The notes under the pieces are model-generated. The model ran no database searches. It saw only the letters and a list, made by a program, of their open reading frames with translations, and had not been told where the DNA came from. Of a DNA stretch of 64,000 nt, positions 36,860 through 43,190 are shown piece by piece. The DNA comes from Aeoliella mucimassa. GTDB taxonomy: Bacteria > Planctomycetota > Planctomycetia > Pirellulales > Lacipirellulaceae. Numbering within the stretch: the stretch's first letter is position 1; each line of letters opens with the position of its first letter. Location: positions 3,596,001 through 3,660,000 of the forward strand of contig NZ_CP036278.1 of assembly GCF_007748035.1 (NCBI RefSeq), given 5' to 3'. The translations under genes were made by a program, and so were the position numbers.

Positions 36860-37582
36860 ATGAGCACCGCCACCCTCCCCCGCAGCGAAGTCGAGCGTAT
36901 CGTCCGCGAGATCGTTCAACGCCAATTTTCGTTTCCTCCTTCGTGTGGTTGCGACAAGGTGTCGACCGGCGCCGCGGTGGAACCCAACCTGGTGGTGAGT
37001 GTTTCGGCCCGCCATGTCCACCTGACCGACGAGCACGTTGAAACTCTGTTCGGCCCTGGGCACACGCTGACGCCGGCCAAGGACCTGTACCAGGATGGCT
37101 TCTTCGCTGCCGAAGAAACCGTGATGGTGGTCGGCCCCCGCCGGCGGATGCTTCCGAGTGTCCGCGTGCTGGGCCCTACCCGATCGTTCAGCCAAGTGGA
37201 ACTCGCGTTTACCGATGGCATCTCCCTGGGCATTAACTTGCCTGTGCGGGCGAGCGGCAAGATCGAAGGAACTCCCGGCTGCGTGCTGGTCGGCCCCGCG
37301 GGGGTGGTTGAGTTGCCCGAGGGGGTGATTCGCGCCGAACGCCATGTGCATATGAATCAGCGCGACGCCGAGTTCTACGGCGTCAAGAATGGCGACCGCA
37401 TGAACCTGCGAATTGAATCGTCGTGCTCCATGCTGCTGGAAGACCTGCTGGTTCGCGCCGACGACACCAGCAAACTGGAAGTGCACATCGATACCGACGA
37501 AGGCAACGCGGCCGACCTGGACCATGCCATGAGTGTGAAACTCGAAAAGCAAGAACCTTGCAGTTGCCAGTCGAAGCATTAA
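36860..37582 (+). CDS. pduL: PduL-type phosphate propanoyl/acyltransferase
   Basis: A 240-aa microcompartment phosphotransacylase converting acyl-CoA and phosphate to acyl-phosphate and CoA, which regenerates CoA inside the shell. Both zinc-binding blocks of the family are present: [20 protein letters not shown] and [13 protein letters not shown]. Residues 6-22 ([18 protein letters not shown]) form an amphipathic helix typical of encapsulation peptides, separated from the body by a Cys-rich linker. In the PVM pathway its substrate would be lactyl-CoA. A Cys-containing tail (EPCSCQSKH) ends the protein. Confidence 0.95.
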
Positions 37583-37696: not shown

Positions 37697-37993
37697 ATGG
37701 CTAAAACAGTGGAAGCGCTCGGCATGATCGAGACCAAGGGCTTCGTGCCGTTGGTCGAGGCAACCGACGCAATGCTCAAGGCAGCAAACGTCAGCTTCAT
37801 GTCGTGGGATAAAGTCGGCGCCGGCCTGGCTGCCGTGTTCGTTACCGGCGATGTCGCTGCGGTGAAAGCTGCTACCGACGCTGGTGCGACCGCTGCGGGA
37901 CGCATTGGCGAAGTCGTCAGCGTGCAGGTGATTCCCCGCCCGCATGAAGACGTCGACAACGTTCTGAAGAAGAAGCCGGCAGCCAAGAGCTAA
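37697..37993 (+). CDS. BMC-H hexameric shell protein 1
   Basis: A 98-aa single-domain BMC shell protein ([40 protein letters not shown]). Six copies form a hexagonal tile with a central pore; the pore loop here is DKVGAG. The C-terminus is extended and Lys-rich ([10 protein letters not shown]), unlike the second copy. GAGGA lies 10 nt before the ATG. It is separated from the second BMC-H gene by only 54 bp. The two paralogues diverge enough to give distinct pores. Confidence 0.97.
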
Positions 37994-38047
37994 CCAGAAC
38001 CAACCACCACTAAGAATACACCTCATAAATTGACTGAAAGGTCTACC

Positions 38048-38317
38048 ATGCAACAAGCTATTGGACTCGTTGAAACAAAGGGGCTCGTTCCGTTGGTCGA
38101 AGCGACCGACGCCATGGCCAAGGCAGCCAACGTAACGGTTGAAAAGCGCGTCGACCTCGGCGGTGGCCTGGTCACCACGGTTGTCAGCGGCGACGTTGGT
38201 AGCGTGCGTGCTGCTGTCGAAGCTGGTGCGGCTGCTGCCAGCCAGGTTGGCGAGTTGATTTCGAGCCATATTATTGCCCGTCCTTCGGATGGTGTGATTT
38301 CGGCTTACTTCAGCTAA
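38048..38317 (+). CDS. BMC-H hexameric shell protein 2
   Basis: An 89-aa BMC-H protein ([40 protein letters not shown]) with pore loop VDLGGG and a short C-terminus (ISAYFS). ATG preceded by GAAAGG; a TTG-type start six codons upstream is less likely. Together with copy 1 it would form the shell facets; no BMC-T (tandem-domain) gene is in the locus. Confidence 0.97.
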   Translation: MQQAIGLVETKGLVPLVEATDAMAKAANVTVEKRVDLGGGLVTTVVSGDVGSVRAAVEAGAAAASQVGELISSHIIARPSDGVISAYFS

Positions 38318-38369: not shown

Positions 38370-39557
38370 ATGAAGGTTTTAATCGCGAACTTAGGCTCCA
38401 CCAGCTTTAAGTATCGTTTGTTCGACATGGACGACGAGCGCCAACTTGCACGCGGTGGTGTGGAACGCATCGGCGCGGAGCAAAGTTCGGCCTTTGTAGA
38501 GATCGATGGCACACGTCGCGATTTGACGATCGTGGCCCCCGACCATGCCGTGGCGGTTGAGCAATGTTTGGCTCAACTCACGGATGCCGAACAAGGTTGC
38601 CTGGCCTCGGCCGACGAGGTTACCGCGATTGGATTCAAAGCGGTACACGGCGGTCGAGTGGGTGGAGTGCGACGCGTGGATAACGATGTGCTGGTGGCCA
38701 TGGAGGATGTGGCCACCGTCGCACCGGCTCACAACCCGCCGTACATTGCGGCCATGCGGCAGATGAACGAAGCACTGCCGCATATCCCCCTGGTGGCGGC
38801 TTTTGAGACTGGTTTCCACGAGACCATCCCTCCGCGATTGAAACACTATGCGGTTCCGACCGAATGGGCGGACCAATACGGCATCAAGCGATATGGCTTT
38901 CACGGCGCGAGTCATCGCTACGTGGCCGGCCGTGTCGCGGAACTGACCGGCAACCATGAGCTGCGAGTGATTTCGTGCCACTTGGGTGGTTCGAGCAGTG
39001 TGTGTGCCATTCGCCACGGCGAGAGTGTCGCCACGTCGATGGGCATGAGTCCGCAATCGGGATTGCCACAGAACAATCGGGTAGGCGACTTCGACCCGTT
39101 TGCTCTGCCAACCTTGATGGAACGCACCGATACCACCCTGCCGGCGGCCTTGGAACTGCTGGCCAACCAGTGTGGACTGCAAGGCCTTTCCGGCACGAGC
39201 GGCGACGTTCGCGACTTGGCCACTGCGGCCGAGGCAGGCGACCAGCGGGCTCAACTGGCGATCGATGTCTATACCACGAGCGTTCGGCATTACATCGGCG
39301 CTTACCTGGTGGAACTCGGCGGAGCCGATGTGCTGGCCTTTGCCGGCGGCATTGGTGAGAACGGGCACGACATCCGTCGCGCGGTCTGCCAGAACCTGAG
39401 CGAGTTGGGCATCGTGCTCGACGAAGCGAAGAACGCCGAAGCAAGAAGCGAAGGCTCGATTCATGCCGAGGGAAGTCGCACGCAAATCTGGATTGTTCCG
39501 ACCAACGAAGAATTGATAGTCGCTCGGCAGGTGCGTGACCTGCTCGGGCAAGTTTAA
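38370..39557 (+). CDS. ackA: Acetate kinase (acyl kinase) of the microcompartment operon
   Basis: A 395-aa ASKHA-fold kinase making ATP and acid from acyl-phosphate. Signature stretches are NLGSTSFKYRLFD (phosphate 1 loop), KRYGFHGASHRYVAGRVAEL (catalytic His region), VISCHLGGSSSVCAIRHGES, and the adenosine-binding LAFAGGIGENGHDIRRAVC. The first signature has ST in place of the usual SS. In the PVM pathway it would turn lactyl- or acetyl-phosphate to lactate or acetate with ATP gain. No encapsulation peptide is evident. The stop is followed 25 bp later by the next gene. Confidence 0.95.
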   Translation: MKVLIANLGSTSFKYRLFDMDDERQLARGGVERIGAEQSSAFVEIDGTRRDLTIVAPDHAVAVEQCLAQLTDAEQGCLASADEVTAIGFKAVHGGRVGGVRRVDNDVLVAMEDVATVAPAHNPPYIAAMRQMNEALPHIPLVAAFETGFHETIPPRLKHYAVPTEWADQYGIKRYGFHGASHRYVAGRVAELTGNHELRVISCHLGGSSSVCAIRHGESVATSMGMSPQSGLPQNNRVGDFDPFALPTLMERTDTTLPAALELLANQCGLQGLSGTSGDVRDLATAAEAGDQRAQLAIDVYTTSVRHYIGAYLVELGGADVLAFAGGIGENGHDIRRAVCQNLSELGIVLDEAKNAEARSEGSIHAEGSRTQIWIVPTNEELIVARQVRDLLGQV

Positions 39558-39582
39558 AGCAAACTCCATTGAGGCTCCGGAA

Positions 39583-39891
39583 ATGTTTCTCGCCAAAGTG
39601 ATTGGCTCGCTGGTATCGACGCAGAAGGTAGATACCCTGCGTGGCCACAAGCTGCTGATGGTCGAGCCGTATCGCCTCGATTCCACGAATCGTACCGATC
39701 TGGTTAGCGCCGGTCGTACGTTCGTTGCTGTCGATACCTTGGGAGTTGGCCAAGGCGACATGGTACTCATTACCCAGGGTTCCAGTGCTCGCTTGACGCC
39801 CGAAACCAAGAACTTGCCGATCGACACCGTCGTGATTGGTATCGTCGACCGCGTGGTTGTCGAGCAGAACACGGTCTTCGACCAGCAATAA
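39583..39891 (+). CDS. BMC-P pentameric shell protein 1 (EutN/CcmL-type)
   Basis: A 102-aa vertex protein: [20 protein letters not shown], then [20 protein letters not shown] and [13 protein letters not shown], the standard EutN/CcmL pattern. Five copies cap shell vertices. The start at 39583 is chosen over an in-frame start at 39535 because the latter overlaps the end of ackA and adds non-family sequence. This is one of three BMC-P genes in the operon. Confidence 0.95.
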
Positions 39892-39929: not shown

Positions 39930-41366
39930 ATGATGCAGATCGACGAACAAACGCTTCGCAATGTGGTTGCGCAAGTGCTCGCCGAAGTCGGCAATCTGCC
40001 GGCGGCCACGAGCACGAATGGCTACTTCGGCCGTCACGGTGTGTTTACCTGTGTCGACGAAGCGGTAGCCGCTGCAAACGAAGCGTTCGACCAACTTAGC
40101 CGCCGGACGATTGAAGATCGCAAGCGAATTATCGATCATATTCGCCGCATTTCGATTGATCAGTGCGTCGAACTCGGCACCATGGAGATGAACGAAACGG
40201 GTGTCGGGCGGCTGGAACACAAAATCGAAAAACTCAAGACGCTCGGCGAACGCACGCCTGGCGTCGAGTTCCTGAAGTCCGAAGTCTTCAGCGGCGACCA
40301 CGGCCTGGCGGTGATCGAACGGGCGCCGTTCGGTGTGATCGGTGCCATCACGCCGGTCACTCACTCGCTGCCGACCATCACCGGCAACGCAGTGAGCATG
40401 ATCGCTGGCGGCAACACCCTGGTGGTCAACCCGCATCCAAGCGGTAAGAAGGTGGCCGCCGAAGGGGTACGTCGCTTCAATCAAGCAATTGCTGCCGACC
40501 TGGGCATCGACAACCTGATTTGCGTGATTGCCGAGCCGACGCTTGAGTCGGCCGACGCCATCTTCCACCACCGCGACATCGCCTGCATTTGTGTCACGGG
40601 TGGCCCCGCGGTCGCCCGCGCGGCACTCAATAGCGGCAAGCGAGCGGTCGTCGCTGGTCCAGGCAACCCACCAGTGGTGGTCGATGCCACGGCCGACTTC
40701 GATCGGGCTGCTCGCTCGATCATCCAAGGGGCGGCTTACGACAACAATCTGCTGTGCATTGCCGAGAAGGAAGTGTTCTGCACCGAAGCGGCTTTCGATC
40801 CGATGATGGACGCCATGGAGCGGGCTGGTGCGGTGCGACTGACGGCCATGGAAATCGAGCGACTTACCGCCGCGGCGATCACCACGGTCGGCGAGGGCGC
40901 GCATCGACACGACGTTCCGGCGAAGGAGTTCATCGGCCAGGATGCGGCCGTGCTGGCTCGCGCCGCAGGACGCGAAGTGCCCGCGGATACCGAATTGCTG
41001 TTTGGCGAGACCGACGAAACCAACCCGTTTGTGCCAGTCGAGCAGATGATGCCCTTCGTGCCGTTCGTGCGTTGCCGCGATATTGAAGAGTGCATCGCCA
41101 AGGCCAAGTTCTACGAGCACGGCTTCCGTCATACGGCCATCATCCACACGAACAATGTTCGCCACATGACGATGATGGGTCGTGCGATGGACACGACTCT
41201 GTTCGTGAAAAACGGCCCCTCCACCGCGTCGCTCGGCCTGGGTGGCGAAGGGTACCTTTCGTTCTCCATTGCCACCCCGACTGGCGAGGGAGTGACCACG
41301 CCGATCACGTTTACCCGCGAGCGACGTTGCTCGCTGATCGACGACCTGCACATCCTTGGTCGTTGA
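39930..41366 (+). CDS. pduP: CoA-acylating aldehyde dehydrogenase (PduP/EutE-type)
   Basis: A 478-aa NAD-dependent enzyme converting an aldehyde and CoA to acyl-CoA inside the compartment. The catalytic cysteine is in [16 protein letters not shown] (PduP/EutE pattern); [20 protein letters not shown] and [15 protein letters not shown] are family blocks. Residues 4-20 ([17 protein letters not shown]) are an encapsulation peptide helix, followed by a Thr/Asn linker. In the PVM pathway the substrate is L-lactaldehyde from the aldolase. Start codon may be 39930 or the next ATG, 39933. Confidence 0.96.
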
Positions 41367-41381
41367 TAGGAAACAAGTCCC

Positions 41382-41642
41382 ATGCTCAAAGCCACGGTTG
41401 TTGGATCCGCGACCTCTACGGTTAAGCACCCTTCGCTCGAAGGCGTGCGGATGCTCGTGGTGCAACCGTACGCCCCCGATGGCACGTCGCCCGACGGCCA
41501 CCCGTTGCTGGCGATCGACACCGGCTACGGCGCCGGCCATGGCGACCAAGTGGTGATCACCAGCGATGGTCGCTACTCGCGAGAGAACTTGCATAACGAT
41601 AACACCCCAGTCCGCTGGACCGTCATTGGAATTTGCGATTAA
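41382..41642 (+). CDS. BMC-P pentameric shell protein 2
   Basis: An 86-aa EutN/CcmL protein (MLKATVVGSATSTVKHPSLE; LLVVQPYAP-type strand; GHGDQVVITSDGRYSRE; RWTVIGICD). It lies 15 bp after the dehydrogenase gene, and its stop TAA is immediately followed by the GTG start of the next gene. It differs clearly from the other two BMC-P copies. Confidence 0.95.
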   Translation: MLKATVVGSATSTVKHPSLEGVRMLVVQPYAPDGTSPDGHPLLAIDTGYGAGHGDQVVITSDGRYSRENLHNDNTPVRWTVIGICD

Positions 41643-41906
41643 GTGACACTCACTCAAGAACAACTCGAATGGATTGTGAGCGAAGTCGTCCGGCGACTTC
41701 GTGCGGCCGGCTATGGCGACAACGCTTCGCCTGCCGCGGCTTCTGCGACGACCACCCTGGCGATCACCGATCGGCTTGTGACCTTGGCCACCTTGGAAGG
41801 CAAGCTACAAGGAGTCGCGGCGGTGCAGGTCGGTTACAAGGCGATCGTCACCCCTGCGGTGGTCGACCATTTGAAGGAAAAACAAATCACCTTAGTGCGG
41901 CAATAA
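41643..41906 (+). CDS. Small microcompartment protein with encapsulation-peptide-like N-terminus
   Basis: An 87-aa protein starting from GTG directly after the stop of the previous gene (translational coupling). Residues 4-24 (LTQEQLEWIVSEVVRRLRAA) form an amphipathic helix like those on the operon's PduL and dehydrogenase. An Ala/Ser/Thr linker follows (residues 25-40). The remaining 47 residues (ITDRLVTLATLEGKLQGVAA ... AIVTPAVVDHLKEKQITLVR) recall the C-terminal strand-helix of PduM and of EutQ/GrpN-like proteins, ending in VTPAxxDxLKEKxI. I infer a structural or assembly factor, not an enzyme. Confidence 0.85.
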   Translation: MTLTQEQLEWIVSEVVRRLRAAGYGDNASPAAASATTTLAITDRLVTLATLEGKLQGVAAVQVGYKAIVTPAVVDHLKEKQITLVRQ

Positions 41907-41938: not shown

Positions 41939-42223
41939 ATGCGTATTGCCAAAGTCATCGGAAACGTCGTGCTCAGTCGCAGCCACCCGGATCTCGCGGG
42001 CGGATCGCTGCGTTTGGCGATTCCCATGACGCTCGACGAACTTCGCACCAACGCGGAGCCAGCCGGCGAGGAACTGGTGGTGTGGGACTACCACGGGGCG
42101 GGCCTCGGTTCGTTGATCGCCTTGAGCGAAAGTGGCGAAGCGGCCCAACCGTTCCGCCCCCAGACGAAACCTGTTGATGCTTACAACTCGGCGATTCTCG
42201 ACACGTTGCGGTTCGATCGTTAA
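41939..42223 (+). CDS. BMC-P pentameric shell protein 3
   Basis: A 94-aa EutN/CcmL protein (MRIAKVIGNVVLSRSHPDLA; LVVWDYHGAGLGSLIALSES; AAQPFRPQTKPVDAYNSAIL). The start ATG is 32 bp after the previous stop. It has a longer C-terminal stretch after the pentamer fold than the other two (FRPQTKPVDAYNSAILDTLR), which is usual for PVM third pentamers as far as I recall. Confidence 0.93.
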   Translation: MRIAKVIGNVVLSRSHPDLAGGSLRLAIPMTLDELRTNAEPAGEELVVWDYHGAGLGSLIALSESGEAAQPFRPQTKPVDAYNSAILDTLRFDR

Positions 42224-42305: not shown

Positions 42306-43190
42306 ATGATGAATATCCACCGGATGAAGCAGGAAATCTGCGAAATCGGCGATCGCATCTACAAGAAGGGATTCGCGGCTGCCAATGATGGCAACATTAC
42401 CTACCGCGTTAGCGAAAACGAGGTGCTTTGCACGCCGACGATGCACTCGAAGGGTTTCCTGAAGCCCGACGACATCTGCCTGATCGATATGCAAGGCAAC
42501 CAGCTTTCGGGCAACAAGAAGCGTTCGAGCGAAGCCTTGCTGCACATCGAAATCATGAAGGCCCGGCCCGACGTCAAAAGTGTGGTGCACTGCCACCCGC
42601 CACACGCAACCGCTTTTGCGGTAGCTCGCGAGCCGATTCCGCAGTGCATTCTGCCTGAGGTCGAAGTGTTCCTGGGCGACGTGCCGATCACCAAGTACGA
42701 AACCCCTGGCGGCCAGGCATTTGCCGAGACCATTCTGCCGTTCGTGAAAAACACGAACGTCATTCTGCTCGCCAACCATGGCACGGTCAGCTACGGCGAA
42801 AACGTCGAGCGGGCGTACTGGTGGACTGAGATTCTCGACGCTTACTGCCGCATCCTGATTCTCGCCAAGCAGGTGGGCAACGTGTCGTACCTGAATCAAG
42901 AGAAGTCGCAGGAACTGCTCGACCTGAAGCAGAAGTGGGGTTTTGACGACCCACGGTTGCACAAGGAGTTCGAGAATTGCGACATCTGCGCGAACGACAT
43001 CTTCCGCGAGAGCTGGCACGATGCAGGAGTGGAGCGCCGCGGTTTCCCCGCTCCCCCCCCGATGCCCGCCAGCAAGCCCGCGCCGGCAACGCCAGCCCCC
43101 GCACCGGCACCAGCTAGCCCAGCCGCTGCCGATCAGGAAGCCATGGTGCAACTGATTACCCAGCGAGTGATGGAAGCCTTGGCAAAGTAG
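42306..43190 (+). CDS. Class II aldolase (fuculose/rhamnulose-1-phosphate type) with C-terminal encapsulation peptide
   Basis: A 294-aa zinc aldolase splitting a 6-deoxyketose-1-phosphate to DHAP and L-lactaldehyde. The fold is FucA-like: GFAAANDGNITYRV substrate loop, KKRSSEALLH (catalytic Glu), VVHCHPPHATAFAVA (zinc histidines) and ILLANHGTVSYGE (third zinc His). After residue 245 comes an Ala/Pro linker (PPPMPASKPAPATPAPAPAP) and a C-terminal amphipathic helix (DQEAMVQLITQRVMEALAK), the same packaging signal as on other operon proteins but at the opposite end. ATG 42309 is an alternative start. The exact sugar (fuculose or rhamnulose) is not decided by sequence alone. Confidence 0.93.
   Translation: MMNIHRMKQEICEIGDRIYKKGFAAANDGNITYRVSENEVLCTPTMHSKGFLKPDDICLIDMQGNQLSGNKKRSSEALLHIEIMKARPDVKSVVHCHPPHATAFAVAREPIPQCILPEVEVFLGDVPITKYETPGGQAFAETILPFVKNTNVILLANHGTVSYGENVERAYWWTEILDAYCRILILAKQVGNVSYLNQEKSQELLDLKQKWGFDDPRLHKEFENCDICANDIFRESWHDAGVERRGFPAPPPMPASKPAPATPAPAPAPASPAAADQEAMVQLITQRVMEALAK

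Follow-up and report, generated by a model that had tools for sequence, protein, structure and literature searches.

An 87-residue protein of a planctomycete PVM operon is the short form of a longer family and probably joins enzyme core to microcompartment shell

We identified a PVM (fucose/rhamnose) microcompartment operon in the window, which is the whole 64,000-nucleotide stretch of Aeoliella mucimassa DNA analysed here. All genes for which coordinates are given in this genome lie on the + strand. The operon encodes a PduL phosphotransacylase (36860-37582; PF06130) and a cargo aldehyde dehydrogenase (39930-41366; assigned from sequence and PVM composition), both with N-terminal sequences resembling encapsulation peptides (EPs), and a class II aldolase, the PVM signature enzyme (42306-43190; PF00596), with an EP-like C-terminal sequence. 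Acetate kinase and lactate/malate dehydrogenase are also encoded. Shell genes comprise two BMC-H proteins (37697-37993 and 38030-38317; PF00936, E=1.1e-25 and 6.9e-24) and three BMC-P pentamers matching PF03319 (EutN_CcmL), namely H (39535-39891, E=6.8e-28), K (41382-41642, E=3.7e-20) and M (41939-42223, E=6.5e-18). Taken together, these genes have the published PVM composition (PMC4207490). A BMC-T tile is absent from the genome, whose only two BMC-domain genes each encode a single-domain protein.

Between pentamers K and M lies an open reading frame of 87 codons (41643-41906, stop codon at 41904-41906), recognised from the ORF list, its orthologues and a family alignment. It encodes a putative adaptor, the short form of a protein for which we use the convenience name PvmL, taken from gene order. 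The GTG start at 41643 abuts the TAA (41640-41642) of the upstream pentamer. This lone TAA parts pentamer K from the adaptor gene, both being in one frame, and a fused K-adaptor reading frame, as would result from reading past it, is absent from every fetched locus. A sequence-only reading of this DNA had described a GTG start on the previous stop (TAAGTG), a length of 87 amino acids and a place between two pentamer genes; the coordinates and the PF03319 matches agree.

Orthologues with 60-70% identity were found in three other genomes of the genus, so that all four genus genomes, including Aeoliella mucimassa, carry the gene. Values of pS range from 0.56 to 0.80 and of pN from 0.20 to 0.30; because synonymous sites are almost saturated, the ratio serves only as an indication. 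Given these orthologues, pN below pS and the same K-L-M place in a large majority of PVM loci, 41643-41906 is a real gene and not a chance ORF. Searches with the single 87-aa sequence were uninformative: direct searches of genome contigs and of plasmids and a Pfam scan each returned zero matches, the protein taken alone had no significant family match and no enzyme family among its matches, and Foldseek comparison of its model with the PDB gave no significant match (best E 0.28), so that no solved structure with the module described below was found.

AlphaFold2 modelling from a 48-member alignment predicts a helix at residues 5-21 (41655-41705), a disordered linker at residues 22-37 (41706-41753) and a beta/alpha mini-domain at 38-86, within a C-terminal module that we delimit as residues 38-87 (41754-41903). 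This matches the helix, linker and 47-residue module of the sequence-only reading, the compact module being about 47-50 residues long. Module pLDDT is about 84-92 over residues 41-87, and the minimum falls in the linker at 26-32. The overall pTM of 0.49 is unsurprising for two parts joined by a flexible linker. Conservation follows the same division, as the mean fraction of the commonest residue is 0.55 in the helix, 0.53 in the module and 0.24 in the linker. T70, P71 and D75 are identical in all 48 family members, and V12 and V15 in almost all. The helix is probably an encapsulation-type peptide, as had been proposed, to judge from matches of the family profile to known EP regions: the N-termini of EutC (E 0.018) and PduE (E 0.64), weak singly, and PduM's own EP. 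Amphipathicity is not distinctive, since 11% of shuffles reach the hydrophobic moment of the helix.

The short protein is not a stand-alone oddity. Among 75 loci fetched via pentamer H, mostly planctomycete PVM operons, the family profile recovers the gene in most, and lengths are bimodal: short forms of 80-91 aa end 3-11 residues past the module, and long forms of 213-381 aa extend at least 132 residues past it. The one case of 99 aa (L056) looks like a frameshifted copy of a long form (L061). The 87-aa protein thus represents the short version in a family that is usually long, with an RpiB-fold C-terminal domain, and it shows the features by which we define this planctomycete PVM adaptor family (EP, linker and TP..D module, encoded between K and M).

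Profile matches of the extra domain in the PDB are mostly to RpiB (best 3.8e-5). Foldseek returned 24 matches at E up to 0.001, all to the RpiB family or the related galactose-6-phosphate isomerase, and in VIA-align (Z 15.2) the isomerase family occupies ranks 1-23. The catalytic Cys is retained in only 1 of 45 and the GTGIG loop is gone, so the domain is likely a dead enzyme. Long forms such as that at L061:9138-9806 carry this conserved fold, without the catalytic residues, in the PVM operon of most planctomycetes. The 87-aa protein falls outside RpiB/LacAB, having no RpiB-fold domain at all, and the long forms have the fold without the catalytic Cys and GTGIG. No spare RpiB-like piece was found elsewhere in the genome, where PF02502 matched only one ordinary RpiB.

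The Lacipirellulaceae line and a small number of others lack the RpiB-fold domain. On a tree of the aldehyde dehydrogenase the short forms are clustered, most sharing one clade with the 87-aa protein. The tree requires four changes of form, at least two of them forced by well-supported branches, and its root is not fixed; the simplest reading is that short forms arose by loss of the RpiB-like domain. A different rearrangement was seen in a Planctomycetia MAG (L044:4802-5149), in which EP and linker are followed at once by the final third of the RpiB-like domain and the module is gone, through either a real internal deletion or an assembly error.

The sequence-only reading also assigned the protein a PduM/EutQ-like tail, and profile searches of the module bear this out, linking it to EutQ and EutT N-termini, to PduM models and to TIGR02536. 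In an NCBIfam scan of the 48 members, TIGR02536 was matched by 28, PduM PRK15428 by 14 and TIGR04493 (PduM) by 9, and every other family once only; in Pfam the sole repeated match was PF15953 (PDU_like; 4 members, best E 0.023). Matches of other family members to the PduM models TIGR04493 and PF15953 are weak (best 2.8e-4). The module profile matched the combined EutQ and EutT N-termini at P=4.9e-10 (EutQ alone 1.7e-4, EutT alone 1.2e-6), and each of these three scores was reached by none of 100 column shuffles. EutQ and EutT were chosen for this comparison by gene identity, replacing an earlier, biased set that included profile-chosen matches, so that both this check and the NCBIfam scan of all members are free of profile selection. 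By these profile comparisons, the module shares ancestry with the N-terminal regions of EutQ and EutT. For the PduM C-terminus, P is about 0.0016-0.0018 (0 of 200 shuffles) and the hhalign probability 16%; the profile, shuffle, Pfam and NCBIfam results, each modest alone, together suggest a link to PduM.

The family profile was also run on 1601 ORFs from the eut and pdu regions of E. coli and the eut loci of Acetoanaerobium, Cetobacterium and Enterococcus. At the top were a PduL C-terminus, EutQ, EutT, small proteins of 106 and 88 aa, the EutC EP and PduM, the last matched at both ends, in order. Reversed sequences gave a best value of 7 and five shuffles best values of 0.07 to 3, hence matches at 0.02 and above are not significant singly. 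The PduL in question is an Acetoanaerobium phosphotransacylase (L113:10927-11829) with the module as a C-terminal extension. Stand-alone proteins of 88-106 aa, consisting of module plus helices, are encoded in Cetobacterium (L114:12405-12671, beside eutN) and Acetoanaerobium (L113:11817-12134); in these eut loci the cupin is encoded by a gene of its own, which gives the impression of an EutQ divided into two proteins.

We surveyed 393 genomes of the phylum. The sequence-only reading had named absence from most PVM operons as a finding that would count against it; a family match was present in 79 of the 82 Planctomycetia genomes with the PVM pentamer H and in none of the 17 without it (counted from listed rows). 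Two of the 79, G107 and G120, have a match that does not adjoin the pentamer. Where both pentamers could be placed clearly, the gene order is K-L-M. The adaptor is missing from five loci or genomes that have K and M: L040 and L055 leave only 22-26 bases between the two genes, no room for an adaptor gene, and the fetched operons of G332, G408 and G272 (L178-L180) have three pentamers and no family match. The gene is therefore not strictly essential. Weaker module matches occur in four genomes of other Planctomycetota classes without PVM pentamer H (G254, G282, G055 and G056) and may belong to other microcompartment types.

By analogy with better-studied compartments, we consider it probable that the 87-aa protein is a minimal two-ended adaptor that ties the enzymes at the core of the PVM microcompartment to its shell. 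The N-terminal EP would associate with the EPs of the cargo (aldehyde dehydrogenase, PduL and aldolase), the flexible linker of about 16 residues would bridge the gap between core and shell, and the C-terminal module would bind the inner face of the shell. Its mode of working would be like that of PduM (EP first, module last), with the small shell-attachment module of EutQ. Beyond the existence, architecture, family, conservation and module homology observed here, the assignment of the module to the shell side and of the EP to the core side is taken from papers on other systems; that both ends act here as in PduM and EutQ, and which shell protein is bound, we infer.

In Salmonella EutQ, residues 9-41, which form the module, are needed for shell attachment and residues 62-99 for cargo, and compartments still assemble when the C-terminal domain is removed (PMC12487888). 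The short forms, which keep EP and module without the extra domain, parallel this truncated EutQ. The RpiB-fold domain of the long forms is likely a structural or oligomerising addition, EP and module being the part that is usually kept. PduM residues 1-23 work as an EP, and in mutants without PduM the core partly comes away from the shell (PMC12108088, PMC9132943). As the 87-aa protein carries both parts, it most likely works as PduM and EutQ do. The sequence-only reading had stated that PduM is needed for shell formation; as such it is not, since published Salmonella mutants still make shells, with core and shell partly separated and some compartments enlarged (PMC9132943, PMC12108088).

Several results count against an adaptor: the loci with K and M but no such gene, a published verrucomicrobial gene list in which two pentamer genes are numbered consecutively (PMC13274419), the loss of the module in L044, the absence of BMC-T, the reversed order of parts in EutQ, the lack of a significant family match for the 87-aa protein alone and the modest link between module and PduM. 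The shell site of EutQ was assigned to the EutM/EutL interface, i.e., a BMC-H/BMC-T seam (PMC12487888), so in a genome without BMC-T the site must differ from that model. We propose a hexamer-hexamer seam or a pentamer. For PduA, a hexamer-hexamer seam has been proposed as the binding site of the EPs themselves (PMC11157265).

The sequence-only reading suggested that the protein could link cargo to vertices. Linking is likely; for the vertices the only evidence is gene neighbourhood. A module that binds pentamers K, M or H and so ties the core to the shell corners would fit the position of the gene, which in nearly all loci showing both K and M has a pentamer gene on either side. It would also fit three genomes in which pduN immediately follows pduM, the Cetobacterium locus in which eutN immediately follows a TIGR02536-like gene, and the lack of BMC-T in this genome. 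However, gene neighbourhood is not binding, the EutQ site was assigned to EutM/EutL, and EutQ and EutT are not encoded beside eutN in E. coli, so we regard this vertex-specific version as unlikely. Quite improbable, in our judgement, is a role confined to the core, with helix and module acting inside the cargo condensate by EP bundling or cargo binding, without shell contact. EPs on their own, as trimeric bundles, can suffice for condensation (PMC12339742), and PduM was found with the core, not the shell, in mutants in which the two were separated (PMC9132943), but the module is homologous to the part of EutQ that stays with the shell once the cargo part has been removed (PMC12487888).

That the 87 residues are a decaying remnant, without a role after loss of the RpiB-like domain, is very hard to reconcile with their retention throughout the short-form clade, with frame and ends conserved, invariant residues kept and pN well below pS, even though the protein is shorter than most of its relatives and some operons do without it. 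The least probable reading is a family of ligand sensors for a sugar phosphate or cofactor; the RpiB-like domain would then be an isomerase turned sensor, and the module would bind metabolites. The RpiB fold of the long form suggests it, but the catalytic Cys and GTGIG loop are lost, the domain is absent from the 87-aa protein and the module matches no ligand-binding family.

Returning to the two-ended adaptor, what is new beyond the sequence-only reading is that the protein is a short form of a longer family with a probably dead RpiB-fold domain, and that this family accompanies the PVM pentamer. We found no assigned function for this PVM gene in the literature covered (which leaves aside the 2014 characterisation of the organelle), consistent with its earlier description as a little-known part; a conserved gene now has a domain map and a hypothesis on its role. 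One common module connects PduM to EutQ, EutT and the PVM family, and the short form amounts to a truncation made by nature, which shows what part of the adaptor usually stays. We are evenly divided on a broader proposal, that catabolic microcompartments share a single small shell-binding module as their socket (in EutQ, EutT, PduM, TIGR02536, a PduL and the PVM family) and that the 87-aa protein is a near-minimal natural adaptor of EP plus socket, whose target, in a compartment lacking BMC-T tiles, must be the surface of hexamers or pentamers. Such an 87-residue protein of EP and socket would, if confirmed, offer a compact cargo-loading tool for engineered shells.

Among known systems, PduM shares with the 87-aa protein an N-terminal EP (IVxEVVxRL pattern; in the 87-aa protein assigned by sequence and model), a C-terminal module in the same order, a gene adjoining a pentamer gene and, probably, a structural role. 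PduM differs in having about 90 residues between EP and module, in place of a 16-residue linker, and the 87-aa protein is far below PduM cut-offs, with no TIGR04493 or PF15953 match. PduM belongs to Pdu compartments and was described in 2025 as without known sequence homology outside them (PMC12108088). EutQ residues 1-99 likewise combine, within fewer than 100 residues, the same module (H1/H2, on the shell side in Salmonella) with a flexible linker and a helical side for cargo. In EutQ, however, the module comes first and is followed by an EP-binding helix pair (H3/H4) and a C-terminal cupin domain (PF06249), whereas the 87-aa protein ends with the module, has its one long helix ahead of it and, with no Pfam match, shows no cupin. 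TIGR02536 proteins (ethanolamine utilisation) also carry the module at the C-terminus, and the Cetobacterium relative is encoded directly before eutN, but they are about 200 aa long with a larger N-terminal part, and the 87-aa protein scores 13.2 bits, over the C-terminal piece only, against a cut-off of 152.6. The EutT N-terminal segment and the Acetoanaerobium PduL extension are the same module, appended to enzymes instead of a bare EP. CcmN and CsoS2 of carboxysomes, with which EutQ has been compared (PMC12487888), are also proposed cargo-shell adaptors; this is a likeness of working only, and no sequence relation is claimed. As it lacks a defining feature of each, the 87-aa protein is not a member of PduM, EutQ or TIGR02536. 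It belongs to a distinct planctomycete family that shares its module with all three and its layout with PduM.
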